A stretch of DNA of 42,448 nucleotides from a virus. Within the stretch, counting starts at the first letter, position 1; each line of letters starts with the position of its first letter. Positions 4,590-42,293 of the stretch are shown piece by piece. The stretch is from positions 1 through 42,448 of the IMG/VR virus record IMGVR_UViG_3300010885_036301; one strand, written 5' to 3'. The notes beneath the pieces were generated by a model, which saw only the letters and a program-made list of their open reading frames with translations, searched no databases and was not told the DNA's origin. A program made the translations under genes and the position numbers.

Positions 4590-6914
4590 ATGCAGTTATC
4601 AACTAATGGTGCTTATCAGGACAAATTGAATTTGAATTTCAATCCTGTTTCATTCAATAACGAATTGGAATTACTTTCAATTGTTAAAAAGGACTGGATG
4701 CCGAGCGTAGTTTCTGGAGGTAGAAACTTAGAGGATTTTGTACTGTCACAATTTCTGTTTGGAGATGTGGATAACGATTCAGAGGATGATTCTGAATCAG
4801 TTTCTATCGAACAATTTGCCGATATTTTTAAGGATCAAGAATATTGGATAGTTACTAGCCGAAATCACCAGAAAGAAAAATCAAAGAAAAAAACGGCTAA
4901 AGGGATAAGCAGGGAGTGGACATCAAAAGCTCAGGATAGATATCACGTTTTATTTTCGCTTGAAAATGACTGTTGGGATTCCGACTGGCTTTCTAGGGAA
5001 TTAGATAGGCTATGCGATAAGCATAAGTTTTTTGATAATTCGGCAAAGGGTGCAACACGGTTTTATTTTGGATCAGAAGATACGCAAGTTATTTACCACA
5101 AAGGATTGAAGTGGCGTTATAGCCCAGAACCTGCTCCAACGGTTCAGGACAATACTATAGTCGATACAGGGGCGGATAAAAACCCGGAACTTGAAGCTAC
5201 ATTAAATGCCCGAATTTTAGAGCTATTGGTTAGTGGTTATCATTCAGGCGAATTTTCAGCCTATGCCGATTGGACAAATTGTGGCATAGCAATGAAGGCG
5301 TGTGGATTTGACATAGAAGATTGGAAGAAAATTACCAATAACGATGTGTCGGAAAGAACTGTTATTTCTAAATGGAATGGATTTAAAGGCACGAAATCAG
5401 GCAAGGGTACACTTGTATACTATGCCCGAAAGATTGATGCAAGCTTTTTGACAAAAGGTAGCCTTAAAGGTACGGTGCGCCCTGCCCCTAGAATCGCTCC
5501 AAGTTTTGGGACAGGAAATACGCCCCCTCCCCCTGCAAACCCCACCACAGGCTCAGGATCAAATGGTAGCCCAGATTCCGGCCCACCGGACAGGACAACA
5601 CCCATGCCAATGAATATGTGGAAAGATGTGTCATCAACTTGGCGCAAGACCCCCGCCTCCCCAACAGGCGAATGGATTACGGTAGCAAATGGAACAATTT
5701 CTAACTTTAAAATTATGCTAGATTATTACCGTATTTCTATTCGTGAAAATATTATGAGAAAGATACAGGAAATTACTGTACCGGGTTATCAGGGTGAGGG
5801 TAAGGTTCAAAATGCAGGGTACGGAGAAGTCGTAGCACTTTGCAAGTTAAATAAGATTGATTGTATAAGCCAATTAGATGTGTATTTTGCCAGCCTAGCT
5901 TTCCAGAACAAATATCATCCTGCAAAAGAATGGCTAGAAGATGGCGATGAAAAATGGGACGGAAAAGACAGATTTGATTTCGTTTCTAATACAGTTATTC
6001 TAAACGAAATGGAAAGAAGTACATTTAACCTTTATTTAAGGAAATGGTTGATCAGTTGTATTGGTGCTATTTATTCGCCTGAATATAGAGGTCGAGGTGT
6101 TCTGACATTTCAGGGTGAGCAATATCAGGGTAAAAGTACTTTCTTTAAAATGCTTATGCCAGATATTGGAAAGAAATGGTTTAAAGAAGGTCTAAATCTT
6201 GACCCTAGAAACAAGGATGCAGTAGAAATCGCAATTTCCCACTGGATTTGTGAGATGGGAGAATTAGAGGGTGTTTTTAAACGGTCTGATCTGTCAGCTT
6301 TAAAGGCATTTCTTACAATGGAAACCGACACTATAAGAATGAGCTACGAAAAGAGGGCTGAAACATACCCTAGAAGAACGGTTTATTGTGCGACTGTAAA
6401 TGATCAGGTTTTTTTAGTGGATCAAACTGGCTCAAGCCGATTCTGGGTAGTTCCGGTTAAAAGGATAGAGTTGGAATTGCTGAAAGGGTTGGACGTAAAA
6501 CAATTCTGGCTTCAGGTGCGTGAATGGTACGCTAAGGGTGAGCAGTGGTGGATGAGCGATGAAGAAGACCGAAAGTTACAGTTAAATAATGAGAACTTTT
6601 CTGAGTCAGATGAAATGGCAAGTTATCTCGAAGCCAATTATGATACTAAATTAGTGGGTGCGGAAAGATCATATTTAAGGTTTTTAAATCTGGCTGAGAT
6701 TGGCGAAGAGATTGGATTTAAAACTATGAACAAGGCCAGTCTAAATAAACTGGCAAGATCACTCAGGGATTTAGGCTTTCAGTATTACCGCACGACCAAC
6801 AAGAAAGGTTACATGATGCCTCCCCTGCTAACCCCCGGCCAAAAAGATGCAATATCCATGGTTGGCGCAAATAAATCAAATGAATTAGAAGATGAGGATG
6901 GCATACCTTTTTAG
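4590..6914 (+). CDS. PrimPol-type primase / P-loop ATPase replication protein
   Basis: A 774-residue multi-domain protein. The N-terminus resembles archaeo-eukaryotic primase-polymerases: a GDVDND acidic motif (residues 58-63), an S-x-x-H motif at 90-93 (SRNH), and DRYHVLF at 116-122. A PriCT-like helical segment (SGYHSGEFSAYADW) follows, then a Pro/Gly-rich linker near 300-345. The C-terminal half has a Walker A (GEQYQGKST, 509-517), an acidic HWICEMGEL motif (551-559) and RRTVYCATVND...GSSRFWVVPV, as in the VirE/DUF5906 ATPases often fused to phage primases. It probably primes and unwinds DNA at the phage origin. The C-terminus EDEDGIPF resembles the SSB tail. Start supported by AAGGGG. The domain assignment is from motifs only. 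Confidence 0.85.
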   Translation: MQLSTNGAYQDKLNLNFNPVSFNNELELLSIVKKDWMPSVVSGGRNLEDFVLSQFLFGDVDNDSEDDSESVSIEQFADIFKDQEYWIVTSRNHQKEKSKKKTAKGISREWTSKAQDRYHVLFSLENDCWDSDWLSRELDRLCDKHKFFDNSAKGATRFYFGSEDTQVIYHKGLKWRYSPEPAPTVQDNTIVDTGADKNPELEATLNARILELLVSGYHSGEFSAYADWTNCGIAMKACGFDIEDWKKITNNDVSERTVISKWNGFKGTKSGKGTLVYYARKIDASFLTKGSLKGTVRPAPRIAPSFGTGNTPPPPANPTTGSGSNGSPDSGPPDRTTPMPMNMWKDVSSTWRKTPASPTGEWITVANGTISNFKIMLDYYRISIRENIMRKIQEITVPGYQGEGKVQNAGYGEVVALCKLNKIDCISQLDVYFASLAFQNKYHPAKEWLEDGDEKWDGKDRFDFVSNTVILNEMERSTFNLYLRKWLISCIGAIYSPEYRGRGVLTFQGEQYQGKSTFFKMLMPDIGKKWFKEGLNLDPRNKDAVEIAISHWICEMGELEGVFKRSDLSALKAFLTMETDTIRMSYEKRAETYPRRTVYCATVNDQVFLVDQTGSSRFWVVPVKRIELELLKGLDVKQFWLQVREWYAKGEQWWMSDEEDRKLQLNNENFSESDEMASYLEANYDTKLVGAERSYLRFLNLAEIGEEIGFKTMNKASLNKLARSLRDLGFQYYRTTNKKGYMMPPLLTPGQKDAISMVGANKSNELEDEDGIPF

Positions 6915-6916
6915 GA

Positions 6917-7268
6917 TGACTCATGACTCATGACTCTAGGGTTGAGTCATAGCCCAAAAAATGACTCATCTATTGAAAAATGCTATGGCAAGTAAGTTTT
7001 GATAATATTTTTTCTAGATTTTAAGTGGTAAGTTAGTTGTTATTGCGGACTATGTTATGACTGATCTTTTTGAGTCATTTTTTAGTTGAGTCATTGAGTG
7101 GGGTCATAAGATAAGTGTTGGCGTTGTAAGTAGTTATATAAAAATGACTCTTATGACTCTTCTATTTATTAAAGTTTAGAGTGTAATAGTAATATAGAAA
7201 GTAGTAAAATATGAAATATTATGGGATGTAAAGGATAGAAATCGAGGGTCATTTGAGTCATTGAGTCA
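6917..7268. repeat. TGACTCA/TGAGTCA heptamer cluster in a non-coding stretch
   Basis: The 530 bp between the replication gene and the next small gene carry exact heptamers at 6917, 6924, 6943, 6962, 7071, 7087, 7254 and 7262, plus one-mismatch copies at 6931, 7145 and 7154. Both orientations occur, and the first three abut head to tail. Two more sit in the promoter of the replication gene. I see no other gene here. Iterated sites beside a replication gene suggest initiator binding (iterons) or a multi-site operator. Confidence 0.7.
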
Positions 7269-7443: not shown

Positions 7444-7608
7444 ATGCCAGAGCAAGCTACTAGCCGAAGTCAAGCTGGAAAAGTTCTTGGAAGTGCCAAG
7501 TCGGAAAGTAAGTCAAGAGCTTCCCGACAGAATGGTCTTAAAGGTGGCCGACCAACTGGATCAGCTTCTCATTCTAGGAATAGGACTGTTAAGAAAGAGG
7601 CCGAATAG
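7444..7608 (+). CDS. Small basic protein with an NGxxGGRP motif, 54 aa
   Basis: The frame is open from further upstream, but ATG at 7444 has GGGGAGG at proper spacing, and the upstream extension crosses the heptamer cluster. The product is MPEQATSRSQAGKVLGSAKS followed by a basic helix and ASRQNGLKGGRPTG, ending RTVKKEAE. From memory, very short proteins with ASRENGKKGGRP-like endings are widespread in phages and mobile elements. GGRP resembles the core of an AT-hook, which binds the minor groove of AT-rich DNA. It is flanked by repeats on both sides, so a role in binding them is attractive but unproven. Confidence 0.65.
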   Translation: MPEQATSRSQAGKVLGSAKSESKSRASRQNGLKGGRPTGSASHSRNRTVKKEAE

Positions 7609-7867
7609 CCCCGGCCTATGATTTTAAAGATCAATCTAACGTTGGGTTTGAATAGGTTTCAATTGATACTGTAGTATGTTTGGTTATGTTAGGTTTGAAT
7701 GATAGGTTATGGAATACCCCGGCACCTATGCTTTTAGATTGAATCTAACGTTGGGTTTGGATTTGTTTTAATTGCAAGACCATGTGTTGCTGGTGTAGTT
7801 GGTGTAATATATAGCACACAAATAACCCCCCGGTATAGGGTTTAAAGGTCTATCTAACGTTGGGTTA
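7609..7867. repeat. Three copies of a ~109-bp non-coding repeat
   Basis: A core of CCCCGG, CTATG, a TTTTA tract and then ATCTAACGTTGGGTT occurs three times. The last block begins at 7634, 7743 and 7852, exactly 109 nt apart, and the CCCCGG blocks start at 7609, 7717 and 7828. About 45-55 nt are conserved per unit and the rest has diverged. Copy 2 has a perfect inverted repeat TTAGATT-G-AATCTAA before the core. No reading frame spans them. They may be protein-binding sites or a structured RNA. Confidence 0.75.
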
Positions 7868-8049
7868 TTATAGATATATATTTTAATGTTTGTTTTATTG
7901 GGCCAAAAAATCCATGAGTAAGTCGGCTATTTGATACAGGTCAGACTTATATATGTTTGTTAATCTAATTTGTGTACTAATATATGTATATGGTTTTTAA
8001 GATAAAAATAAATAGCAATAATTGGTGCAGATTATATTGATGGGATGGG

Positions 8050-8403: not shown

Positions 8404-8453
8404 TTGGCACGGTTCTTGCTGCGTGCAAGAAGTGTGCCAAAACACTGTTTTGG
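8404..8453 (+). promoter_or_regulatory. Sigma54-type -24/-12 promoter inside a palindrome, plus adjacent operator-like palindrome
   Basis: Positions 8404-8420 (TTGGCACGGTTCTTGCT) match the published sigma54 consensus YTGGCACGrNNNTTGCW at every defined position, with the correct GG to GC spacing. The element is the left arm of a 37-bp imperfect palindrome (8404-8440) with 7-bp outer and 7-bp inner arms. A second palindrome, CCAAAACA-C-TGTTTTGG, spans 8437-8453, where the transcript would start. No T tract follows, so a terminator is unlikely. Sigma54 use would need host RpoN and an enhancer-binding activator. The palindromic context leaves a chance match possible. Confidence 0.5.
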
Positions 8454-8519
8454 GGCAAAAATTATTTATGTTTATTTTTGTCCGCTAGGGTAAATCCACT
8501 ATACACGCCCCCCCCTATC

Positions 8520-8528
8520 TGGTATAAT
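8520..8528 (+). promoter_or_regulatory. Extended -10 promoter element
   Basis: TGGTATAAT is a full TGn extended -10 with a consensus TATAAT. No convincing -35 hexamer lies 17 nt upstream, as expected for extended -10 promoters. A transcript would start near 8535 and lead into the gene at 8613, giving it a second possible promoter besides the sigma54-like element. Confidence 0.6.
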
Positions 8529-8612: not shown

Positions 8613-8876
8613 ATGGCGTCCGTTAAGAATGGCAGAAACTCTGCCAAATCCGTTTCCAGTGTTCAGGCCAAGGCTTTGGCCCGAGTTGAGCTTGCCGTGT
8701 TGTTGGATAGCAAAGACCTAGTGGCTCAGGTGGCAAAAGCCATCGCCGGAACCGTAGGCGAAAACGAACCTACCCTTTGCGCCAAGTACGCCATCGAACA
8801 AGCGCTCGCTGGCCTCGGCTATCTTCCCGACTCGTGGGCCCCGGTAATTACCGCCCGAGACCGATCGGCCAAGTAA
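8613..8876 (+). CDS. GC-rich hypothetical protein, 87 aa
   Basis: ATG follows TTAGGAGGCGTC, one of the best ribosome sites in the window. The N-terminus is basic and Ser/Lys-rich (MASVKNGRNSAKSVSSVQAK), followed by an Ala/Leu-rich helical segment (LARVELAVLLDSKDLVAQVA) and GTVGENEPTLCAKYAIEQALAGLGYLPDSW. I do not recognise it. Base use is clearly more GC-rich than in surrounding genes, with many third-position G/C codons. It stands alone between its own promoters and a strong hairpin. This suggests recent transfer or selection for high expression. Confidence 0.75.
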   Translation: MASVKNGRNSAKSVSSVQAKALARVELAVLLDSKDLVAQVAKAIAGTVGENEPTLCAKYAIEQALAGLGYLPDSWAPVITARDRSAK

Positions 8877-8884
8877 TAGCCTAA

Positions 8885-8923
8885 AAGATACCCCCGGAGA
8901 CCGAACAGTCTCTGGGGTATCTT
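8885..8923 (+). terminator. Strong hairpin terminator after the GC-rich gene
   Basis: AAGATACCCC (from 8885) pairs with GGGGTATCTT (ending 8923), and the inner GAGAC/GTCTC adds five more pairs around a six-base loop. The stem is long and GC-rich but is followed by a G run, not T. That G run then pairs with C6 across TTA (8926-8943). It probably blocks transcription or protects the 3' end, although it is not a textbook intrinsic terminator. Confidence 0.6.
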
Positions 8924-9191: not shown

Positions 9192-9848
9192 ATGACAAAA
9201 GTTCTATCGACTAAAATTAATTCACAATCTAAAAATCATTTTATGGACGCATCTCAATTCATTGATGTAAATATGAATCACGGATTAATCCTTAAAAAAG
9301 ATCAGGGATTCCAATACCTTAAAGTTGAGGATAAAGCATTTCTTTTGTGTCACCTGTATGAAACTGAATTGACAAAACCGGAAGCTTACTGCAAATCAGT
9401 TTGGGACAAAAACTTTAATGATTTGACTGATATTGAAAAAAAGAGAGCAAACGTAGAAGCCAATACAAGGTGGAAGTGGATAGAGCAAAAAATGGGCGGT
9501 TTCCGAAACATTATTTCTATGATGGGAATTGATGTGGTTCTTATTGTAAGGGAAGCCAAACGTTTATTGAAAGCAGATAAGATGGCTTTGGATAAGCAGG
9601 GGAATGAACATTATAGTATGGATGGGCCGACCCAGATGAAGGCACTGGAGTTTATAGCCAAACTTAGTGGTAATTATTCTGAGGACGCTGAAGGCAACCA
9701 AAAGACTGCCATAAATATTAATTTCAATACTTCGGGCAACGCCAAACCTGCTAGACCCAAGGATATTGAGGATGATAATATGGTCGTGTTTCGTGGCGAC
9801 AAAAACAAACTTGATATGGATTTTGATATTTATCCAGAAGGTAAATAA
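9192..9848 (+). CDS. Putative terminase small subunit
   Basis: A 218-residue protein at the usual position just upstream of the large terminase. Residues about 50-110 read like the helix-turn-helix DNA-recognition segment of small terminases (AFLLCHLYETELTKPEAYCKSVW, then RANVEANTRWKWIEQKMGG). The C-terminal part is acidic and polar (PKDIEDDNMVVFRGDKNK), as expected for a tail contacting the large subunit. It would bind the packaging site and regulate the motor. Start ATG at 9192 has a GGCGGA site. Assignment rests on position and the helical pattern, since sequence motifs in this family are weak. Confidence 0.65.
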   Translation: MTKVLSTKINSQSKNHFMDASQFIDVNMNHGLILKKDQGFQYLKVEDKAFLLCHLYETELTKPEAYCKSVWDKNFNDLTDIEKKRANVEANTRWKWIEQKMGGFRNIISMMGIDVVLIVREAKRLLKADKMALDKQGNEHYSMDGPTQMKALEFIAKLSGNYSEDAEGNQKTAININFNTSGNAKPARPKDIEDDNMVVFRGDKNKLDMDFDIYPEGK

Positions 9849-33260: not shown

Positions 33261-33471
33261 GGGGTTGCTCCTTTTGGTCAGGTAGTGTAATCGTAGGATT
33301 GTTCACCACTGCAAACCCAATTTCAAATTGTCGGCAGATTTCCTTGTGTCTCTTGTCAAACTGCTCCTTCGGTGCGTAGTAGGTTCCTTCGTGTTCAGCC
33401 CACTGGATGTAGGCTTGAACTTGATGAAACTCTCCATCTGAGAGCATGACAGTATGCGTCTTTTTACCCAT
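33253..33471 (-). CDS. Hypothetical protein, 72 aa
   Basis: ATG at 33471 (MGKKTHTVMLSDGEFHQVQA) is chosen over a GTG three codons earlier, which lies in the GAGGTGGGG ribosome site. The sequence is charged and helical (FDKRHKEICRQFEIG). It overlaps its upstream neighbour by 8 nt and the downstream gene by 8 nt. G+C content is higher than in the flanking phage genes. No recognised family. Confidence 0.65.
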   Translation of the reverse strand: MGKKTHTVMLSDGEFHQVQAYIQWAEHEGTYYAPKEQFDKRHKEICRQFEIGFAVVNNPTITLPDQKEQPHE

Positions 33472-33838
33472 TGACCCCACCTCGGCCCTTGGTCAGGAGG
33501 GCGTGGACTACCTTGGCTATGTATCGAGCCTCGACGTTGGTTAGCAATGCCGTGTTGTCTTGGTACATGGCCTCTGCCAATTGGTCAATGGTAGGAACCA
33601 AAACCAACGAGGCGGGGGTTAGGTTGGCAAGATACTCGGCGTTCTCTTCGACCGTGTAGAACCCCTCAAAGTCTGCGTGGTTCATGGCATCCATCATCTG
33701 TTGCTCCGTGTACCCGATCACCGGGGCGAGGTCGGCTCGGATGTATTCAACGGCAGTTCCATACTTTTCGGCATAGTATGGAGAGCATCGTTTACCGTCC
33801 TCGGTGTCAATAAAAATCCGTTCTGGCAGGTCACTCAT
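33464..33838 (-). CDS. Hypothetical protein of phage/plasmid type, 124 aa
   Basis: ATG at 33838 has AAGGAG upstream. The N-terminus MSDLPERIFIDTEDGKRCSP, then VEYIRADLAP, recalls a recurring module (ERIW-D...G......YIRADL) in phage hypothetical proteins that present quality or query data; its function is unknown. The rest is helical (YTEQQMMDAMNHADFEGFY, TIDQLAEAMYQDNTALL). Codons are clearly GC-richer than in the neighbouring replication genes, suggesting acquisition from another source. Confidence 0.7.
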   Translation of the reverse strand: MSDLPERIFIDTEDGKRCSPYYAEKYGTAVEYIRADLAPVIGYTEQQMMDAMNHADFEGFYTVEENAEYLANLTPASLVLVPTIDQLAEAMYQDNTALLTNVEARYIAKVVHALLTKGRGGVNG

Positions 33839-33862
33839 AATTGCTCCTTTCTTTCAGCACTA

Positions 33863-34906
33863 TCATTCCTTTCTCCTTACATGAATACCAAATAAAGACA
33901 ATCCAAAAAATATTGGTGTAAATATAACCATCATTGCTGACGGTATTCCTGTTATGAGTAATTCAAATTCATTCTTAACATCTTGGTTTCCACTTGATAC
34001 CATGCCAAGTGCGCTTGAATTGGATTCAGTTTTCTTCTCCAGTGTCGCTAGTCTTGCCGTCCGGTCAGCATTCCATTCTTGTATCCTCTTGGTCTGCCCT
34101 TCTAGATCAGCACGGTTTGCCCTGACCCTAGCTTCAGCGGTCGCCTTGCCGGGGTCGCCGGGGGGCAACGCCTTCCACTCTGCCAATCTCTGATCCAGTA
34201 GTAATTGAGTGCGTATCATGGCTTCGTTCTCCAGTTTTATATTTGTATCCAAGGTGGCAATGATTGGATCATCTGTAGCTGGCTTGGCTTCAGTAACAGA
34301 TAATTCTTGTTTGATATTAATTTGATGAAAAGAGGCAATTGAAGCATAAACCTCGTAGGACATTGAGGCGGTTCCACCGACAATGAATAAAAGACCGATC
34401 AACATTTGAAACCAATTCATTGGCTTCTTAATTGCAGAACTAAAATAAAGCATTGCAACAATAGGCAATATAGCAGAAGCACCTTGAAAAATAATAGCAT
34501 TAAGATAACCTTGCCATCCAGCAGTTGAATTAATGTCAAGAATTACCATAAATCCACGAACCATACAAGCGCAAGCAATAACAAATGACAATCCACGAAG
34601 TATCCATACTCCCGCCCCCTGCCTAGCCAAAACTTCGTGAAAATCTTTTGCCTTTTCAATCTCAGAAGATTCTGTTTTCTTGTTCCATTCTTCCTGAGTC
34701 ACAACAGGAATCGTATGAATTGGGGGCGGATTGGCAGGGTTGGCGGGTCTACGCACATTCGGTCGCAAGTACGTTTCCCTGTACTCATTGATCAGAGACT
34801 GAGCTTCCTGTGGCGTAATTTTCAAATCATCAGAAAGAGACATGGGGTGCGGTAGCTTCCCTGTCTTTCTATACAAATCAATTCTTGCCTTTGCTTCTTC
34901 TGTCAT
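33863..34906 (-). CDS. Multi-span membrane protein with coiled coil, 347 aa
   Basis: The N-terminal ~95 residues are soluble and Pro-rich (RRPANPANPPPIHTIPVV). Three membrane segments follow at about 98-125, 133-158 and 163-190. A ~115-residue charged helical region comes next (ATLDTNIKLENEAMIRTQLL, then EARVRANRADLEGQTKRIQE), and a fourth membrane segment lies near 312-340, ending HVRRKE. This two-part membrane design with a coiled coil between resembles other phage transmembrane proteins of unknown role, including candidates for superinfection exclusion. Its start lacks a strong ribosome site and overlaps the upstream gene by 29 nt. Confidence 0.65.
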   Translation of the reverse strand: MTEEAKARIDLYRKTGKLPHPMSLSDDLKITPQEAQSLINEYRETYLRPNVRRPANPANPPPIHTIPVVTQEEWNKKTESSEIEKAKDFHEVLARQGAGVWILRGLSFVIACACMVRGFMVILDINSTAGWQGYLNAIIFQGASAILPIVAMLYFSSAIKKPMNWFQMLIGLLFIVGGTASMSYEVYASIASFHQINIKQELSVTEAKPATDDPIIATLDTNIKLENEAMIRTQLLLDQRLAEWKALPPGDPGKATAEARVRANRADLEGQTKRIQEWNADRTARLATLEKKTESNSSALGMVSSGNQDVKNEFELLITGIPSAMMVIFTPIFFGLSLFGIHVRRKE

Positions 34907-35261
34907 TTGATTTCTTCTTTGGTAAAAATTTAGATTCTTTTTCTTGAAGTTGTTTAGCTTCTGTCTTAAACAGTTCGATTGACTTATTTATTTTGGCAAT
35001 GTGTTCTGGTATTTTTTCTTGAGCTTTCTTGGTCTCCCAAGACAAACTAAATTTCTCAGCGCATACTGGCCCACACAAAACTTCTGTATTCATAAAATGA
35101 TAAATAACGTTATAACCATGTAACCTTATATTGATTGCACTATCTCTTATCCTAAACCCAACCCTAGCTTTTTCTTGTTGCAATTTTGATTTGCATACTA
35201 AGCAAAGTAATCCATTCTCAATAGCTTCAGGTATCTTAAATGAAAGATTAAGACCAGACAA
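34878..35261 (-). CDS. Small protein with CxxC zinc-knuckle pattern, 127 aa
   Basis: TTG start at 35261 behind GGAAATAATAA, overlapping the nuclease gene by 14 nt. CLVC near residue 20 and CGPVC near 63-67 form a likely split zinc site, followed by a charged helical tail (HIAKINKSIELFKTEAKQLQ) and a very basic end (PKKKSNDRRSKGKN). It could bind nucleic acid. Being coupled to a VRR-NUC-type nuclease, it may assist in DNA processing. No family recognised. Confidence 0.6.
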   Translation of the reverse strand: MSGLNLSFKIPEAIENGLLCLVCKSKLQQEKARVGFRIRDSAINIRLHGYNVIYHFMNTEVLCGPVCAEKFSLSWETKKAQEKIPEHIAKINKSIELFKTEAKQLQEKESKFLPKKKSNDRRSKGKN

Positions 35262-35673
35262 TTATTATTTCCAAATGTTGTATTAAAGATTTAACGTCAT
35301 AAATGTTTCCACCCATTGCTACTGAGCATTTGCAATTAAAGAATTGATTTACAGACATTTCGCTTCTAAGTGGAACTATGTAATAAGAAACTATTTGCTC
35401 AAACGATTTAAAGATAAGAAATACTGGCACACCAGTTTGATTTATCTGATCAATATAGAATGGCTTTTGATTGGGCTGAAACTTTGTTTTGATTGCTTTC
35501 TTTTCATCGCCAGACTCAAGAACCTTCAGTTCAATCATGGCACCGTAGTGAGGAGCTTTAAAGCACAACAGGTCAGGCAAGCCGGGGATGGAGCCGGGAT
35601 GGTACGCCGACCAACCATTAACTCTCAATTCTTTTACAAGTTCTTTTTGAAATTGAAATTCTAAATCACGCAA
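35248..35673 (-). CDS. VRR-NUC-like nuclease
   Basis: A 141-residue PD-(D/E)xK-type nuclease: GLPDLLCF with D34, MIELKV with E48 and K50, and FQPNQKPF with Q69, the order expected for VRR-NUC and Holliday-junction resolvase-like enzymes. Stand-alone phage VRR-NUCs are of similar size and are thought to cut flaps or junctions during replication and recombination. TTG start at 35673 has AGGAG 7 nt upstream and no nearby ATG. All catalytic residues are present. Confidence 0.8.
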   Translation of the reverse strand: MRDLEFQFQKELVKELRVNGWSAYHPGSIPGLPDLLCFKAPHYGAMIELKVLESGDEKKAIKTKFQPNQKPFYIDQINQTGVPVFLIFKSFEQIVSYYIVPLRSEMSVNQFFNCKCSVAMGGNIYDVKSLIQHLEIIIVWS

Positions 35674-35675
35674 AT

Positions 35676-36038
35676 TTAAACTCCTAGAGATTCATTCCAT
35701 ATTTCTTTGAAATCTTCGGGCGTAAGCCTCTCTCTGCAAATCTCTACAAAACGCTTCTCGGTATCTTTGTTTTTAAAGAATAATGATTCTTTCAAATCAC
35801 GAACAAAGTAAATCAACGCATCTTTATATTTCAGTTTTTTTACAATATGTGAAGGGGCTTCACCCTTGTCAACAATTTTTAATGCGTCTGAAAATGGAGC
35901 AATTACTTCTGAGATGACATTAATTTCTTCGTTAACATTTTTAATAAGCAGTTCTTGTTGATCGTAATTCATTTTTGAAACAATTTCAACATTGTAAAAA
36001 TCGTCTCTAAACTTGAATCCTTTTTCAAGAGTCTTCAT
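35676..36038 (-). CDS. Hypothetical protein, 120 aa
   Basis: ATG at 36038 (MKTLEKGFKFRDDFYNVEIV) has AAGGA close upstream. The longer frame to 36068 runs into the 5' stem-loop and is rejected. The protein is charged and helical (EEINVISEVIAPFSDALKIV, RFVEICRERLTPEDFKEIW). It is the first gene of a unit with its own promoter (36098-36127), ahead of the nuclease. No family recognised. Confidence 0.7.
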   Translation of the reverse strand: MKTLEKGFKFRDDFYNVEIVSKMNYDQQELLIKNVNEEINVISEVIAPFSDALKIVDKGEAPSHIVKKLKYKDALIYFVRDLKESLFFKNKDTEKRFVEICRERLTPEDFKEIWNESLGV

Positions 36039-36060
36039 TTTAATTCCTTTGGTAAATAGT

Positions 36061-36089
36061 GGGGCCAAGATGGGTTAAATCTTGGCCCC
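36061..36089 (-). promoter_or_regulatory. 5' stem-loop at the start of the nuclease-unit mRNA
   Basis: GGGGCCAAGAT pairs perfectly over 11 bp with ATCTTGGCCCC around a 7-nt loop. Its first base lies where transcription from the promoter at 36098-36127 should begin. A stem at the extreme 5' end would shield the mRNA from 5'-dependent decay. It might also act as a terminator for upstream reading, though no T tract follows. Confidence 0.65.
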
Positions 36090-36097
36090 TTAGCGCA

Positions 36098-36127
36098 ATT
36101 CTAATATTGAATCTTAAATATTGTCAA
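36098..36127 (-). promoter_or_regulatory. Sigma70-type promoter for the nuclease unit
   Basis: On the minus strand, TTGACA (36122-36127), 18-nt spacer, TAGAAT (36098-36103). Transcription would start at about 36090, just at the first base of the stem-loop, and run through genes 35676 to 32395. Confidence 0.8.
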
Positions 36128-36130
36128 GAC

Positions 36131-36322
36131 TTACTTGACGTAAGAGGCAATCTTGTTATTAAGAAACTCAACAACACTTTCAGCATTGTGCTGATCTTTG
36201 TAAAAACCAATCAAATCTTTAACTTCTTCGATGGTCTCAAGAGTCAAAGGCACCTTAAAAGGCTTAAATTCAGAAGCCTTTTTCGCTCGTGCAGTCTTCT
36301 TTCGTTCAATAAGTGTAGCCAT
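36131..36322 (-). CDS. Small basic protein, 63 aa
   Basis: ATG at 36322 has AGGAG upstream. The N-terminus is very basic (MATLIERKKTARAKKASEFK), followed by an acidic helical half (LETIEEVKDLIGFYKDQHNA). It may bind nucleic acid or a protein partner. It follows the putative ssDNA-binding protein gene and is the last gene of that unit. A GTT-loop hairpin lies in its leader (36359-36373). Function unknown. Confidence 0.7.
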   Translation of the reverse strand: MATLIERKKTARAKKASEFKPFKVPLTLETIEEVKDLIGFYKDQHNAESVVEFLNNKIASYVK

Positions 36323-36358
36323 AATAAAATCTCCTATTTTAAGGAAAAAAATCTTTTA

Positions 36359-36373
36359 CAAGTCAACGACCTG
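36359..36373 (-). promoter_or_regulatory. GTT-loop hairpin in the leader of the small basic gene
   Basis: On the minus strand CAGGTC, loop GTT, GACTTG form six pairs including one G-U. A T-rich stretch and AGGAG follow, as after hairpin 2 of the left-operon junctions. The stem sequence is unrelated to those, but loop and placement agree. Confidence 0.45.
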
Positions 36374-36379
36374 TTTTAA

Positions 36380-37210
36380 TCAGAGAGGATTGTCTTCTTC
36401 AACATCAACATCGTGATAGCTAGAAGCACCAGCAGTATCAATAGTTTCTTCATTGGTTTGCTGGAAGAACTTAAAGCTTTCGATGACGTATCCAGCCATA
36501 TCGGAAGGCACCAGTTCACTGCGAGTAGCATTGACCTTTGAACCGCTTCCAATGTTCCAATAAGTAGATTGATTTTTAGGATTGGTATCAAGTGAAAGTC
36601 CCAATTCCCAAATAAAATTCCACTTCTTAGCCTTGACTCCGGGGGCAACGAAAGCAGTATCAATCATACTGTTCCATTTTATGCACTGCTTAACAGAACC
36701 CATTCCAAGAGAAAACCTGAGAACTCCCAGTTCTAAGTGGTCTGGCAGGATGACCATGTAGTTCACGAATTCCTGAATCATATTGTTTGACTCAACAGTC
36801 CGAGTACCGTCACCCTCGACATAGACCAGCTTTTTCTCAGCTTCCATCCTGCGGTATTCTTTTTCAGGAATAGTTCTAACGTAATCCTTCTTTTGCTTGT
36901 TTCCAGAATACTCCACAAAAGTTCGAAAGTATTTCAGAACAACAATACGAATCTTCTCTCCCAAAATGGTATTAGTAAGAGTGTCGTAGAACATACCCGC
37001 TTGCATACCCGGAATAAATTTAGCGTGTCCCTTTGTGGCGACTTGGGAATTTGTCTGTGCAATCTTGAGCCATCCGTAGGTCAAGTCACGACGATCAAAA
37101 TCATTGTCGCCAAGGTTTCCTGTAGAACTGTAGATAGTAAGATCAATTTTGTTTGTATCAACAACTTGAATCTTTTTATCATCAATAACAATAGTGTCTT
37201 TTTCGGCCAT
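36380..37210 (-). CDS. Putative ssDNA-binding/recombination protein, acidic tail
   Basis: A 276-residue protein. LTYGWLKIAQTNSQVATKGH, FIPGMQAGMFYDTLTNTILG and a central beta-rich part (IRIVVLKYFRTFVEYSGNK) look like a single-domain nucleic-acid-binding protein. The last residues are acidic and end EEDNPL, recalling the acidic tips of phage and bacterial single-strand binding proteins. Neighbours (SNF2-like helicase, nuclease) support a replication or recombination role. I recall similar phage proteins without firm function, so this remains a hypothesis. A short gap separates it from the gene upstream. Confidence 0.5.
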   Translation of the reverse strand: MAEKDTIVIDDKKIQVVDTNKIDLTIYSSTGNLGDNDFDRRDLTYGWLKIAQTNSQVATKGHAKFIPGMQAGMFYDTLTNTILGEKIRIVVLKYFRTFVEYSGNKQKKDYVRTIPEKEYRRMEAEKKLVYVEGDGTRTVESNNMIQEFVNYMVILPDHLELGVLRFSLGMGSVKQCIKWNSMIDTAFVAPGVKAKKWNFIWELGLSLDTNPKNQSTYWNIGSGSKVNATRSELVPSDMAGYVIESFKFFQQTNEETIDTAGASSYHDVDVEEDNPL

Positions 37211-37220
37211 TTGTGTTTCC

Positions 37221-37877
37221 TTATTTCTTGATTGTAACTTTTAAAACATTTTGAGTCTGAATGTCAGCAACGTTTTTATCGGGCCAATGTTTACCCCCTT
37301 CAATTATTTTTTTGATTGAAGCTTTCTGAGTCATTCCATTAATAGATTCCTCTTTCTCAGCAACAACCCTATTTTCAATCAACCAATTATCAAAAGCTTT
37401 AATCTGTTCACGTTCAACTGACTTGTCAAATTTGAACACCGTTTTGATAATGTGATCATAATCAACTTCTTTTAGATAATCAAAAAAAGCATTTTTGTCA
37501 AGCACCTTGATTGAGTACTCTGCTTCTTTCCTATAAACATCTCCATTTGGAAATGCAATCTTATTTGCGCCTTGCTGAAACATGATATCAAGAATTCTGT
37601 TTTCAATTGCTTTGCGTTTTGCTTTAGCTTTTTTCAAAAACATTTCTATAACAGGAATTGGCAATTCAGAAATGTATTCATTTCTATCTGTTATGTATTG
37701 TGAATGCGCCTCTTCGGAATAGTATTGACCTAATTGTTTTTTGCCAACTTTCCCGATATAATTAAATTGAGAAATTAAATCTGGTACAGAAGTATTTGAA
37801 TCTATAATTACCATGACATCATTTGTGTCATCGTATTCATTCTCGTTTTCTTCCGAATCGTAATATTCATCACTCAT
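37221..37877 (-). CDS. Phage protein of replication/recombination cluster, 218 aa
   Basis: ATG at 37877 follows AGGGGG. The N-terminal 25 residues are acidic (DEYYDSEENENEYDDTNDV). A helical part then contains RKAIENRILDIMFQQGANKI, FPNGDVYRKEAEYSIKVLDK and AFFDYLKEVDYDHIIKTVFK, and the C-terminus reads INGMTQKASIKKIIEGGKHW. From memory this layout (small beta hairpin, D-K-x-x-F-x-x-Y-L helix, xTxKAxxK...G end) recurs in phage proteins near single-strand annealing genes. The molecular role is unknown to me. Confidence 0.5.
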   Translation of the reverse strand: MSDEYYDSEENENEYDDTNDVMVIIDSNTSVPDLISQFNYIGKVGKKQLGQYYSEEAHSQYITDRNEYISELPIPVIEMFLKKAKAKRKAIENRILDIMFQQGANKIAFPNGDVYRKEAEYSIKVLDKNAFFDYLKEVDYDHIIKTVFKFDKSVEREQIKAFDNWLIENRVVAEKEESINGMTQKASIKKIIEGGKHWPDKNVADIQTQNVLKVTIKK

Positions 37878-37898
37878 GGATTCCCCCTGATTGAGATC

Positions 37899-37928
37899 AT
37901 AGTATCATGAAACGCATCATTGTGTCAA
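37899..37928 (-). promoter_or_regulatory. Sigma70-type promoter for the ssDNA-binding unit
   Basis: On the minus strand, TTGACA (37923-37928), 18-nt spacer, TACTAT (37899-37904). It overlaps the end of the helicase gene and lies about 20 nt before the ATG at 37877. Confidence 0.7.
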
Positions 37929-39494
37929 CTATATGGCACCAGAAAATTCATCATCTGTCATTGATTCAAATGTCGCTTGTATATTTTTTTTATCATTTGC
38001 TAATTGCAAACAACGAAGATCAATTGTGTTATCAGCTAATAAATGCTTTACAACTACTGCTCGTTTTTGACCGCTTCTATCAAGTCGGTAAACTACCTGT
38101 TCCCAATCTTCAGGATCAATTGGAATGTCATAAACATACATCATACTAAAACTAGATTGAAGTCCGTCTATACCTCTGGCAATGCTTGCACTATTTGCAA
38201 CGATAAATCTAACAGTTCCCCTTTTCGCCATTTCAATAAGTTCGTCCCTGTCTTCGTCCGAAGTGTCTCCAAAGTAGCTACGAGTAATTCCGATTTTGTT
38301 AAGAGCCTCTGTAAGTAATCTAATATTAGCTCTGTAAGAAGTAATGATAATGCAATTCTCTTCATGGTCTTCAATATCGTCCAAAAGAGCTTCAATTTTG
38401 CTAGGCGAAGTCGTAATCTGTTCGAACTCACTAAAACTACCTCCGGTCATTTGTCTGAATTTATGAAACAAGCTACCTTTACTTTTCATGGTGACTATTT
38501 CACCATTTTCTTTGATGTATTCTAAATCTCTTTTTATCTTTTTATACGCTTTTGATTCTTCAGAATTAAGGTCAAACAAGATGTTTTCATGGACAACTTC
38601 AGGCAAGCCTTCTGGTCGCTCGGCATAAAAAACAAATGGCTTTATTTGATTGTAAACGTCTTCTAGCCTAAGTTCAGACCTTTTTAAGGCAATGGTAATA
38701 TTGTCAATTTCGGCTTCAAGTTTTGCTTTGAATGCAAGTTGTTTGTCGCTTAGAATTGATTTTCGATTTATGCTATCAAGCTTGACCTGCATATCATTAA
38801 CGTCAGTCCAAGTCATGGTCTTGGGATAGCCACCCTTCCCATCTGCAAACTTAACAAACATCTTGACCGCATATTTGTATTCAAAAACAGAATAAGTTCT
38901 CTCTTTCCAAAAAAACTCTTTAAGCAATTCCATTTGCGCCCATATGTCTGTTACTGCTTTTGGAGTAGGAGTTCCATTAAGAATAATTCTATATTTCGCA
39001 TTGTGGCAAATGGTAAGAACACGTTTAGTTCTTTCAGATTTAGGATTCTTAAACTTTCCAGACTCGTCAAATATTAGAAATACTTTTCTTGTATCAAAAA
39101 GAAACTTAATAGTATTCATAAATTTTTCGTTGTATCTTTGAAAAGATTCTACTGACATCATGTATATTGGAAACTTATCGTATTTTAAATAAGCTTTTAA
39201 TTCATCCATGTACCATTTTGTTCCAGCTTTTACTGAATCCCAAACAATCCATTTAGGATCAAGATCGGAATGCTCGGGTATCTGATCTTTCCAAGTTTTG
39301 AATACATTTTTAGGACAAACAATAACCATTGAATCTATATGATTTTCATTTTTTAGCTTTTCTACTATAGCTAATGTAGTTAAGGTTTTTCCTCTTCCCG
39401 GCTTATAAAGAAGCCCAGAGAAACCATGAGTCATCATGTTCGCATAAGCGAGTTCTATGTGATTTGCTTGGTAATCTCTGGGCAAAGTTTTCAT
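37929..39494 (-). CDS. SNF2-like DEAD/DEAH-box helicase
   Basis: A 521-residue superfamily 2 enzyme. Motifs in order: Q-like LPRDYQ (4-9), Walker A KPGRGKT (31-37), VIVCPKNVFKTWKDQ (motif Ia region), DESGKFKN with D143/E144 (motif II), LNGTP (172-176, motif III), then ITSYRANIRLL, FIVANSASIARGIDG (motif V) and QVVYRLDRSGQ (motif VI). Short phage helicases of this type occur in replication or recombination modules. ATPase and helicase motifs are intact. The gene overlaps the HTH-like gene upstream by 4 nt. Confidence 0.9.
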   Translation of the reverse strand: MKTLPRDYQANHIELAYANMMTHGFSGLLYKPGRGKTLTTLAIVEKLKNENHIDSMVIVCPKNVFKTWKDQIPEHSDLDPKWIVWDSVKAGTKWYMDELKAYLKYDKFPIYMMSVESFQRYNEKFMNTIKFLFDTRKVFLIFDESGKFKNPKSERTKRVLTICHNAKYRIILNGTPTPKAVTDIWAQMELLKEFFWKERTYSVFEYKYAVKMFVKFADGKGGYPKTMTWTDVNDMQVKLDSINRKSILSDKQLAFKAKLEAEIDNITIALKRSELRLEDVYNQIKPFVFYAERPEGLPEVVHENILFDLNSEESKAYKKIKRDLEYIKENGEIVTMKSKGSLFHKFRQMTGGSFSEFEQITTSPSKIEALLDDIEDHEENCIIITSYRANIRLLTEALNKIGITRSYFGDTSDEDRDELIEMAKRGTVRFIVANSASIARGIDGLQSSFSMMYVYDIPIDPEDWEQVVYRLDRSGQKRAVVVKHLLADNTIDLRCLQLANDKKNIQATFESMTDDEFSGAI

Positions 39495-39769
39495 TCATTA
39501 TCCTTGGGAATTAATTCTTCAATAATGTCCAAATTGTCATAACAATTTGGGTAAATTTCTGTAACAGGCTTTCCCAATACTTTTTCTAATTTTCTTTCTG
39601 TTTTGAAGGATGGTTCACGTTTTCCGTTACACAAATCCCTACAAGTCAAATCGGCAATGTTTAGAATTCTAGCCAACAAAGGAATGTTTATTCCCTTTTG
39701 CAAAGCAAATTCTTTAATATTATTTGTATAAGTTCCTTTTTCTGCGGGAATAGAAGGATAATTATTCAC
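39491..39769 (-). CDS. HTH-like protein, 92 aa
   Basis: I chose GTG at 39769 (MNNYPSIPAEKGTYTNNIKE) because AGGAGG is 6 nt upstream; a GTG twelve codons earlier has no site. Residues 17-75 follow the XRE pattern: IKEFALQKGINIPLLARIL, NIADLTCRDLCNGKREPSF as turn and recognition helix, KTERKLEKVLGKPVTEIYP. It overlaps the glycosyltransferase end and the helicase start, so it is translationally coupled in the operon. It may regulate the right-arm promoters. Confidence 0.7.
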   Translation of the reverse strand: MNNYPSIPAEKGTYTNNIKEFALQKGINIPLLARILNIADLTCRDLCNGKREPSFKTERKLEKVLGKPVTEIYPNCYDNLDIIEELIPKDNE

Positions 39770-41021
39770 TGCAAGCCTCCTCAAAAATTGATCTCCACTT
39801 TCCACCTATTGACTCGTCATCCCAATCTTTAACCCATTCCAGAGCAAGCTTTGCTTTTCTTTTCGATTGTTCATTATTTTGCGTCATAAAAAATAATTGG
39901 GTTGACATTTCTTTTACATCTGTCAATGGTCGAATAATATTGTTATCTGGATTTCCAAGACAAAAAGTGTTTCCATTATTTCCAGAAGGAATTAGAGTGC
40001 CACGGATTCCATATTCAGATTCGCTTTTACCAACGATTTCAGTTATTGAGGTGTTGTCGGGGAACATGACAGGCGTACCGCAAGCCATTGATTCGGTCAA
40101 GGACAAGCCCCAACCCTCTCCAAGCGTGGTGCTGATACATACGTCAGCAGTCGAGTAGATGACAGACACTTGATCTTCTGGAACCCCAACAAGGGGGTCG
40201 TACCGGGAGGGGTCTGGACAAGCCCAATCAACTCCCCAAACTAATCCATATTGAGATGCAAAATCTAGAATGTTTCCGCCAATGTCGGCAGGATTTGATA
40301 AAAGAAACAAATAAGATTTAGGATGTTTTTTGTGAAACATGGAGAAAGCACTAAACGTTCTGCTTAAATCTTTTCTAGGTTGATTCCTATTTACATTTAT
40401 CACAATAAACTTATCTGATACTTCTTTACCCCAAAAATTTTCCCGCATCGCTTCCCTTGCTTGACCAAGAGGTTTGAAAATAGATTTATCAGTTCCATGA
40501 TAAATTACATCCATATTTTTTAGTCTTGGCAACTGACGAGCGCAAAGAGACCTTCCCCACTCTGTATAACAAACAGGATAATCTGATAACGCAACAGATT
40601 TTGTAATCCAGTCTGGAAAAGGGTTTGCGTCAATTGGAAAGTAATAAATAATCTTAAATTTTTTTATAAGCATATTTCTTAATTCAATAATCTTTTCCAT
40701 CAAATTTTTCATGACGAAAGTATCTTGCAGGATGAAGAGAATGTCTACTTTTCCAGTAGCGAGAAAGCGCATGAGCTTTCCTGTACCATATGGATCAAAC
40801 TGTTTTCCAGCTTCAAAAGGCGGGTACACATCGTATAGGAGAGGTTTTTCTTTATAAATATCCGGTTTGTATGGGTCGCCAAAATACGATATTCCCAAAA
40901 CATCAATAGAATACTTTTCTTCATCATATATTTGGCGAATAATATTTTTAACAACTTTGCCAAATCCTGTAATACCGTGCGGATTGTCTCCCCAAAATAA
41001 AACTTTTTTTGGTTCACTCAT
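39762..41021 (-). CDS. Glycosyltransferase, GT4-like
   Basis: A 419-residue GT-B fold protein. The N-terminal domain begins VLFWGDNPHGITGFGKVVKN. The C-terminal domain has VINVNRNQPRKDLSRTFSAF and STTLGEGWGLSLTESMACGT, the E-x7-E-type donor-binding signature (EGWGLSLTE) of retaining GT4 enzymes. It should transfer a sugar from a nucleotide donor. Next to a nucleotide-sugar dehydratase it may modify phage DNA, a virion protein or the host surface. ATG at 41021 overlaps the stop of the gene before (ATGA). Confidence 0.85.
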   Translation of the reverse strand: MSEPKKVLFWGDNPHGITGFGKVVKNIIRQIYDEEKYSIDVLGISYFGDPYKPDIYKEKPLLYDVYPPFEAGKQFDPYGTGKLMRFLATGKVDILFILQDTFVMKNLMEKIIELRNMLIKKFKIIYYFPIDANPFPDWITKSVALSDYPVCYTEWGRSLCARQLPRLKNMDVIYHGTDKSIFKPLGQAREAMRENFWGKEVSDKFIVINVNRNQPRKDLSRTFSAFSMFHKKHPKSYLFLLSNPADIGGNILDFASQYGLVWGVDWACPDPSRYDPLVGVPEDQVSVIYSTADVCISTTLGEGWGLSLTESMACGTPVMFPDNTSITEIVGKSESEYGIRGTLIPSGNNGNTFCLGNPDNNIIRPLTDVKEMSTQLFFMTQNNEQSKRKAKLALEWVKDWDDESIGGKWRSIFEEACSE

Positions 41022-41287
41022 TCATCTTGCTCTTGAAGAAATGGAGAAATATCTGGCTTTGAAGGAGTTCCGTTTAAAGGTTTAGAATCTGTAGCAAGGA
41101 TGAGATTGGTATTGAACTGAGCAACATGAGTTTGTTTAATTACATCCAGAATAGAAATAACTTCAAAAACTGAAATATTTTTTGGGTCTTGGTGAATGTT
41201 AATTCCTTGAGGGGTAAGTACTACTTTAAGTTCGTAGCTTCTAATAGAATCATTAACATTCTTTTGAATCGTTTTGGCGTTAGGCAT
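41018..41287 (-). CDS. Hypothetical protein between sugar genes, 89 aa
   Basis: ATG at 41287 (MPNAKTIQKNVNDSIRSYEL) has AAGGAG 6 nt upstream; the longer frame to 41314 lies in the previous gene. The product is mixed beta/alpha (LKVVLTPQGINIHQDPKNIS, VFEVISILDVIKQTHVAQFN) with a disordered end. It overlaps both neighbours by 4-8 nt. It could be an accessory factor of sugar modification or an unrelated small gene. No family recognised. Confidence 0.65.
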   Translation of the reverse strand: MPNAKTIQKNVNDSIRSYELKVVLTPQGINIHQDPKNISVFEVISILDVIKQTHVAQFNTNLILATDSKPLNGTPSKPDISPFLQEQDE

Positions 41288-42293
41288 TTTTTTCTCCTTG
41301 AAATTTGTCAACATAGAATTTTACAGTACGTTTAAATTGATGTCTAAATGAATCTTTATGTTGTGCAATTACTTGATTTATCAAATCAGGATTTGTTGAA
41401 ATAAGTTTTTTTGATTTAGACCAATATTTTTTATCGTTTCCGGGTCTATCTTTTATTGTTTGTATATTAGAATCAATGTTGTGTTCTTTAATAAGAAATT
41501 CTTTGATCATTTCGATTATTGTAGTATTTGGAATACAATATGATCCATCAAGATTTATGTTGTAGTGATTATTAATTTTTCCATTTGAAATAATTTGTTG
41601 AATAGCAAATGAATGGAATCCTACTGATACCCATTGCCTGTGGTGCTTTCCTGCGTGTAAGAGCATTGGTCTTCCTTCCACGGCATTCTTGATATTAAGA
41701 GGGATGAATTTTTCTTCATTTTGGAATTCCCCAAATGTATTGCAACCGTGAGAGATAGTGTATGGTATTCCGTAAGTATTCCCATAAGCCTCAACAATAT
41801 GATCAGAAGACGCTTTCGAGGCTGAATAAGGATTGCCCGGATTGTACCTCTTGGATTCCGTAATAGAAACACCAGAAATTGAACCGTAGACTTCATCCGT
41901 GGAGACATGGTGAAAAAGGACATTTTTTTTATTGCTCCAAAATAACTTTGCACTTTCTAATAAATTTTGAGTTCCATTAATATTTGTCAATATAAATTTG
42001 CTTGGGTTTCCAATGCTATTTGTTACATGACTTTCTGCCGCAAAATGAACTATAAGATCAATATTGTTATGTTCTATTACCCATTTAATTGCTTCTTCAT
42101 TAATATCTAAATTATAGAAGAAAACAAATTCTGATTGAAACTGTTCAATCAAATTAGTGTTAGAAGCATAAGTACAAGAATCAACAATAGTTATTGTTTC
42201 AAATGATTTTAATGCAATACAATCTTTTACATATTGGCTACCGATAAATCCAAGTCCTCCGGTAACAAGAACATTTTTAAATTTTCTATTCAT
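41280..42293 (-). CDS. NAD-dependent dTDP-glucose 4,6-dehydratase-like enzyme
   Basis: A 337-residue extended short-chain dehydrogenase. TGGLGFIG (11-18) binds NAD. VHFAAESHV, HHVSTDEVYGS and YSASKASSDH (the YxxxK catalytic pair) are all close to RmlB. The later EKFIPLNIKNAVEGRPMLLH and KDRPGNDKKYWSKSKKL segments also follow RmlB, including the RPGxD..Y motif. It should convert a dTDP- or related NDP-hexose to the 4-keto-6-deoxy form. The IGG near the C-terminal strand is replaced by INLDG. GAGG precedes the ATG, and a consensus-like promoter lies 22 nt further upstream. Confidence 0.88.
   Translation of the reverse strand: MNRKFKNVLVTGGLGFIGSQYVKDCIALKSFETITIVDSCTYASNTNLIEQFQSEFVFFYNLDINEEAIKWVIEHNNIDLIVHFAAESHVTNSIGNPSKFILTNINGTQNLLESAKLFWSNKKNVLFHHVSTDEVYGSISGVSITESKRYNPGNPYSASKASSDHIVEAYGNTYGIPYTISHGCNTFGEFQNEEKFIPLNIKNAVEGRPMLLHAGKHHRQWVSVGFHSFAIQQIISNGKINNHYNINLDGSYCIPNTTIIEMIKEFLIKEHNIDSNIQTIKDRPGNDKKYWSKSKKLISTNPDLINQVIAQHKDSFRHQFKRTVKFYVDKFQGEKNA

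Follow-up and report, generated by a model that had tools for sequence, protein, structure and literature searches.

The window, an orphan metagenome contig that makes up a complete linear IMG/VR record (42,448 bases), carries in a 1.0-kb gap between genes a perfect sigma54-type -24/-12 element, and the same motif, with the same strict spacing, recurs in many unrelated phages. Judging from its sequence, this element is probably a binding site for host sigma54 (RpoN) and its RNA polymerase holoenzyme, rather than for a phage protein. As to its use, we tentatively place first a host-dependent, activator-gated promoter, favoured narrowly over a trap, in which the polymerase would be held on the DNA in silence.

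The element and its gap

The gap extends from a small conserved gene to the gene of an 87-amino-acid protein, with a VapE-like primase upstream, and terminase and portal genes downstream. The features used below are listed here, L002 and L003 being the two close relatives of the window:

4590 to 6914, plus strand: VapE-like primase/helicase gene, upstream of the noncoding region
7444 to 7608, plus strand: small conserved gene, the synteny anchor, 69% identical to L002 877-1047
8107 to 8409, unstranded: AT-rich repeats, TAGCGYAAAAATTAGCGC-like, in a register of about 12 bp, not conserved in L002
8322 to 8420, plus strand: block upstream of the + element, aligned with L002 1407-1506 (67.6% identity, E 2e-5), that stops at the element
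8404 to 8420, plus strand: sigma54-type -24/-12 element, perfect consensus, with the C at -12 at 8419 and a predicted +1 near 8431
8424 to 8440, minus strand: second -24/-12 element by sequence match, the right arm of the palindrome
8404 to 8440, unstranded: 37-bp imperfect palindrome made, by sequence, of the two facing -24/-12 elements
8437 to 8453, unstranded: second palindrome, CCAAAAC-ACT-GTTTTGG, overlapping the first
8500 to 8528, plus strand: sigma70-like promoter TATACA-17-TGGTATAAT, downstream of the palindrome and in the same direction, a consensus match of a kind found no more often than in shuffles
8613 to 8876, plus strand: 87-aa ORF of no known family, with an AGGAGG Shine-Dalgarno, the first gene downstream of the + element
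8885 to 8923, plus strand: strong hairpin that follows the 87-aa gene, with about -25 kcal/mol and no clear T tract
9192 to 9848, plus strand: conserved gene directly before the packaging genes, terS-like by position, present in L002 and L003
10350 to 11678, plus strand: terminase large subunit (terL)

The original prediction had announced a perfect match on the plus strand and a near match on the other strand of the palindrome, and both are confirmed, far above chance. The plus-strand sequence, TTGGCACGGTTCTTGCT, has 0 mismatches with YTGGCACGRNNNTTGCW, and its GG and GC lie exactly 10 bases apart, as a sigma54 promoter requires; the minus-strand sequence, TTGGCACACTTCTTGCA, has 2 mismatches with the strict pattern and an intact GG-N10-GC. 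The strict pattern occurs once in the window where 0.0025 occurrences are expected, and the relaxed pattern twice, where 0.045 are expected. With a sigma54 matrix that is approximate, being built from the published consensus rather than from a curated set, the two sites score 22.1 and 20.2 bits, and the runner-up place, within a leftward ORF, 17.2.

In the 37-mer, 16 positions pair, including one G-G mismatch and one G-T, and the RNA fold is a strong hairpin (z = -3.4). It is not an intrinsic terminator: the palindrome is followed by AACACTG, without a T tract. A telomere-resolvase site was also rejected, because L002 carries the half-element without the palindrome. A search of the window for RNA families returned none. 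The AT-rich repeats are, by their sequence, candidate sites for an activator or a replication protein.

Other repeats surround the small gene. A 42-nt repeat (core ATCTAACGTTGGGTT) is present three times at 7623-7882, with a spacing of exactly 109 bp, and the core AACGTTGGGTT recurs near L002 1083; TGACTCA/GAGTCAT repeats are scattered between the primase and the small gene, at 6953-7266 in the window and at 547-840 in L002. At 33464-42293, a leftward module contains an SNF2-type helicase, a Gam-like protein, a glycosyltransferase and a nucleotide-sugar epimerase.

Conservation in the relatives

The viral collection contains only two close relatives of the window, L002, whose terL is 70% identical to that of the window, and L003; a portal scan returned only the same pair, and a VapE scan no further relative. 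The conservation of the element within the gap is read from L002, the sole relative that covers the region. A third relative, L008 (terL 44% identity), has no good site in the covered part of its record. A terL scan of genome contigs for the host of the window gave no match, and TJE1, considered as a lead to the host, turned out to be only distantly related and to have no sites.

In the syntenic gap, L002 carries three sites, TTGGCACGGTTTATGCT, TTGGCACGGTTTATGCA and TTGGCATGGTAATTGCT, where 0.0125 are expected; they have the same direction, are 57-64 bp apart, have unrelated flanks, and form no palindrome. The alignable block of about 100 bp terminates exactly at the + site of the window, which is the first of the three sites of L002: positions 8404-8420 of the window are orthologous to positions 1490-1506 of L002. 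Since the - arm, at 8424-8440, has no counterpart in L002, we infer that what has been conserved is the half-element in its rightward reading, the palindrome being a local variant.

These comparisons separate the parts of the original prediction. The sigma54 identity is well supported: the retention of GG-N10-GC in relatives, which had been proposed as a check, is observed three times in L002, where the palindrome is lost. The suggestion that the element fires in both directions is not supported for the window/L002 family, because orthologues exist for the + site alone. It had also been suggested that the element might fire towards the packaging genes; it probably does not serve them, because a strong hairpin follows the 87-aa gene and the terS-like gene lies behind a leader of its own.

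Sites in unrelated phages

Sigma54 elements had been called rare in phages, which is true per contig but misleading, since 93 viral contig stretches hold tandem pairs of sites. These pairs have the spacer N10, and a pattern with the spacer N11, one base longer, has 0 matches; the facing-pair pattern is found in 12 viral stretches. In whole records, the sites are present and the reversed control pattern is absent. Many array loci have 3-13 sites each, with variable spacers and flanks; the spacing is 25-29 bp for tandem sites, and 19-22 bp for facing ones. The palindrome layout of the window is also found in L010, L027, SYP and PaP1. One of the arrays, with 7 sites, belongs to an element with an integrase and a primase beside pheT in a Methylococcaceae genome bin (L131).

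When the loci are grouped by shared proteins, they form 18 groups without a common protein at E<1e-6, the biggest of which, built by single linkage, has 84 loci. Because the sites occur in 18 phage groups that share no protein, the simplest binder is a common host factor. Neither a sigma54 DNA-binding domain nor, over the cut-off, a Sigma54_activat domain was found in 50 array-phage records, and neither RpoN nor a Sigma54_activat domain was found to be encoded by the window. The triple-array pattern has 9 matches in genomes, of which five resemble repetitive coding DNA and one has TGCG for TGCW; rpoN is present in 4 of the 4 genomes with array-like matches, against 2 of the 5 with coding-repeat-like matches.

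The collection scan patterns already contain the consensus; the variation profile is thus restricted to copies that fail the search pattern. In these degenerate array copies, G3, G4, C5, A6, T14, G15 and C16 vary in 2-14% of cases, and positions 1, 7, 8 and 9 in 28-62% (about 28% in shuffled sequences); position 13 also varies, and the main changes are C7>T and G8>A. For sigma54 of E. coli, positions 3, 4, 14, 15 and 16 are reported to be important, and positions 1, 8, 9, 10 and 12 unimportant (PMC4591121). As a comparison of sequence profiles, the tolerance of the phage copies fits this reported binding profile. The phage elements share with the bacterial -24/-12 promoters of the E. coli and Salmonella regulons the GG-N10-GC core, the form TTGGCAYR...TTGCW and the tolerated variants (PMC4591121, PMC3844500). 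Unlike these promoters, they lie on phage DNA and are clustered or palindromic, and no activator gene lies nearby.

Cultured phages have such sites as well. With a 30-base consensus query, phages of Vibrio, Pseudomonas and Cronobacter show sites between genes; matches in Mycobacterium and Synechococcus phages are single, fall within coding DNA, and were discounted as chance occurrences. The first 13 kb of SYP, a phage of Pseudomonas plecoglossicida, contain 10 sites with at most 1 mismatch, all 10 of them intergenic although 68% of this DNA is coding, and four of the sites make two palindromes of the window type. The palindromic form is present in the cultured Pseudomonas phages SYP, PaP1 and C11, and the DNA flanking one SYP palindrome is similar in 145 Pseudomonas records. 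The motif check covered part of these records: in four aligned phages and PaP1, TGGCA, TTGCAATTGCA and TGCCA are retained, with spacers that differ and a TTGACA hexamer behind; Kassivere and PN09 have an altered palindrome or none. Beside the palindrome, L144-L147 have an intergenic GC-rich block (GCGGGCAACGCAGG...GAGCACCGGAGACAAACAGGGAGGGAG); it is highly conserved among Pseudomonas phages, and possibly acts as an RNA or as a control element. In Vibrio, the phages VPT02 and pVp-1 and their relatives have two conserved sites that face each other rather than gene starts.

Promoter, parked polymerase or origin

As a promoter, the element would work as follows. The holoenzyme would sit on the + site as a closed complex, and an active host enhancer-binding protein would start transcription near 8431, running rightward into the 87-aa gene, for which a separate sigma70 promoter seems to be present as well. 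The facing - site would compete for that stretch of DNA, and the palindrome would accommodate a single holoenzyme, whichever way it points. In the window, the + site does face the 87-aa gene, which has a good Shine-Dalgarno. Promoter use is suggested by one large phage family, the terL family: of its 237 sites, 195 are directed away from the late operon (195:42), toward the phrog_1392 gene side. Where the flanking ORFs run in the same direction, 38 sites are directed at the start of a gene and 50 at the end of one, which shows no promoter-like bias overall, with the proviso that these ORF calls are mechanical and many sites fall within spurious ORFs. In the G016/L027 phage, nearly all sites are oriented against the surrounding rightward genes, which, like the facing sites of the Vibrio phages, counts against promoter use.

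The absence of an overall gene-start bias also counts in favour of a rival that we consider somewhat less likely: a trap, or parked polymerase, in which a silent closed holoenzyme is held on perfect-consensus sites without sigma54-driven transcription, depleting the host, or blocking or regulating origin DNA and sigma70 promoters in the vicinity. It draws support from clusters that reach 13 sites, both tandem and facing, and from the failure to find phage activators in the array-phage records. Given the size of a polymerase footprint, the tandem and facing spacings look too tight for one polymerase per site, and are more easily explained by competition for one polymerase than by promoters that act independently. 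Moreover, a sigma70-type TTGACA promoter begins about 10 bp past the palindrome in SYP, and TTGACA is close behind the palindrome in phiPMW, C11, SPA01 and PaP1. A trap or roadblock is a serious rival because the sigma54 holoenzyme can repress sigma70 promoters, reportedly overlapping ones, with a C at -12 in all such motifs (PMC4551910). The phage sites likewise match the consensus, lie beside sigma70-type promoters, and keep the C at -12; however, this repression was reported for chromosomal genes, unlike the phage arrays. Against the trap, the orientation of the arrays is uniform in the terL family, and the window and L002 hold merely 2-3 sites, which is few for this purpose.

A more general proposal is plausible, though less likely than not: that many phages whose hosts bear RpoN have clusters of perfect sigma54 sites and no activator, and capture the host sigma54 polymerase with them, be it as a trap, as a silent roadblock placed in early or origin regions, or as an array promoter that responds to host stress activators. 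In the open-access literature, we found nothing on sigma54 arrays in phages, nor a description of such capture as a general strategy. Phage transcription is usually described in terms of sigma70, phage sigma factors or phage polymerases; the arrays suggest that phages often recruit or trap RpoN, a host regulator rarely considered in phage biology. If this is true, conserved sigma54 elements in many unrelated phages tie infection to the nitrogen or envelope-stress status of the host, or expose host sigma54 as a target of sequestration. The cultured Pseudomonas and Vibrio examples make the idea directly testable. Genetics with rpoN will need controls for glutamine, RpoS and the flagellum, because the effects of host rpoN on phages can be indirect, via glutamine and RpoS (PMC8744999) or via the flagellum (PMC11877940).

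It is improbable that the sites are replication-origin elements, to which an initiator would bind, or at which sigma54 polymerase would open or prime the origin DNA. Like origin iterons and DnaA-box origins, they are iterated in large noncoding gaps that, in the window and in L131, adjoin a primase gene, the gap of the window being rich in repeats and the L131 array sitting behind its primase. In four Vibrio T5-like phages, two facing sites flank a DnaA-box-rich gap of about 250 bp with repeated TGTGGATAA boxes. Around the arrays, DnaA boxes are enriched 18-fold, but the enrichment drops to 2-fold when ORFs of at least 80 aa are masked (5 near, 9 far); they occur in a minority of cases, and no DnaA box lies near the window element. 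Unlike phage-specific initiators, for which one motif across unrelated phages is unexpected, the sites have a common motif with a sigma54 profile.

Finally, an operator of a phage or host DNA-binding protein that merely resembles a sigma54 promoter would agree with the palindromic, iterated layout and the strong hairpin, but is quite unlikely in view of the strict 10-base spacing, the sigma54-specific tolerance profile and the recurrence of the motif in unrelated phage groups without one common regulator gene.

Two observations are added on the DNA close to the sites. In the Vibrio T5-like records L133, L134, L135 and L139, the conserved noncoding block, rich in DnaA boxes and origin-like, has the two facing sigma54-type sites at its edges. 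Hairpins follow 29 of 442 sites, against 11 in shuffles, and in three unrelated phages (L002 at 1611, L141 at 11810 and L144 at 1562) a sigma54-type site is followed by a ACGCGTGC-CACGCG hairpin.
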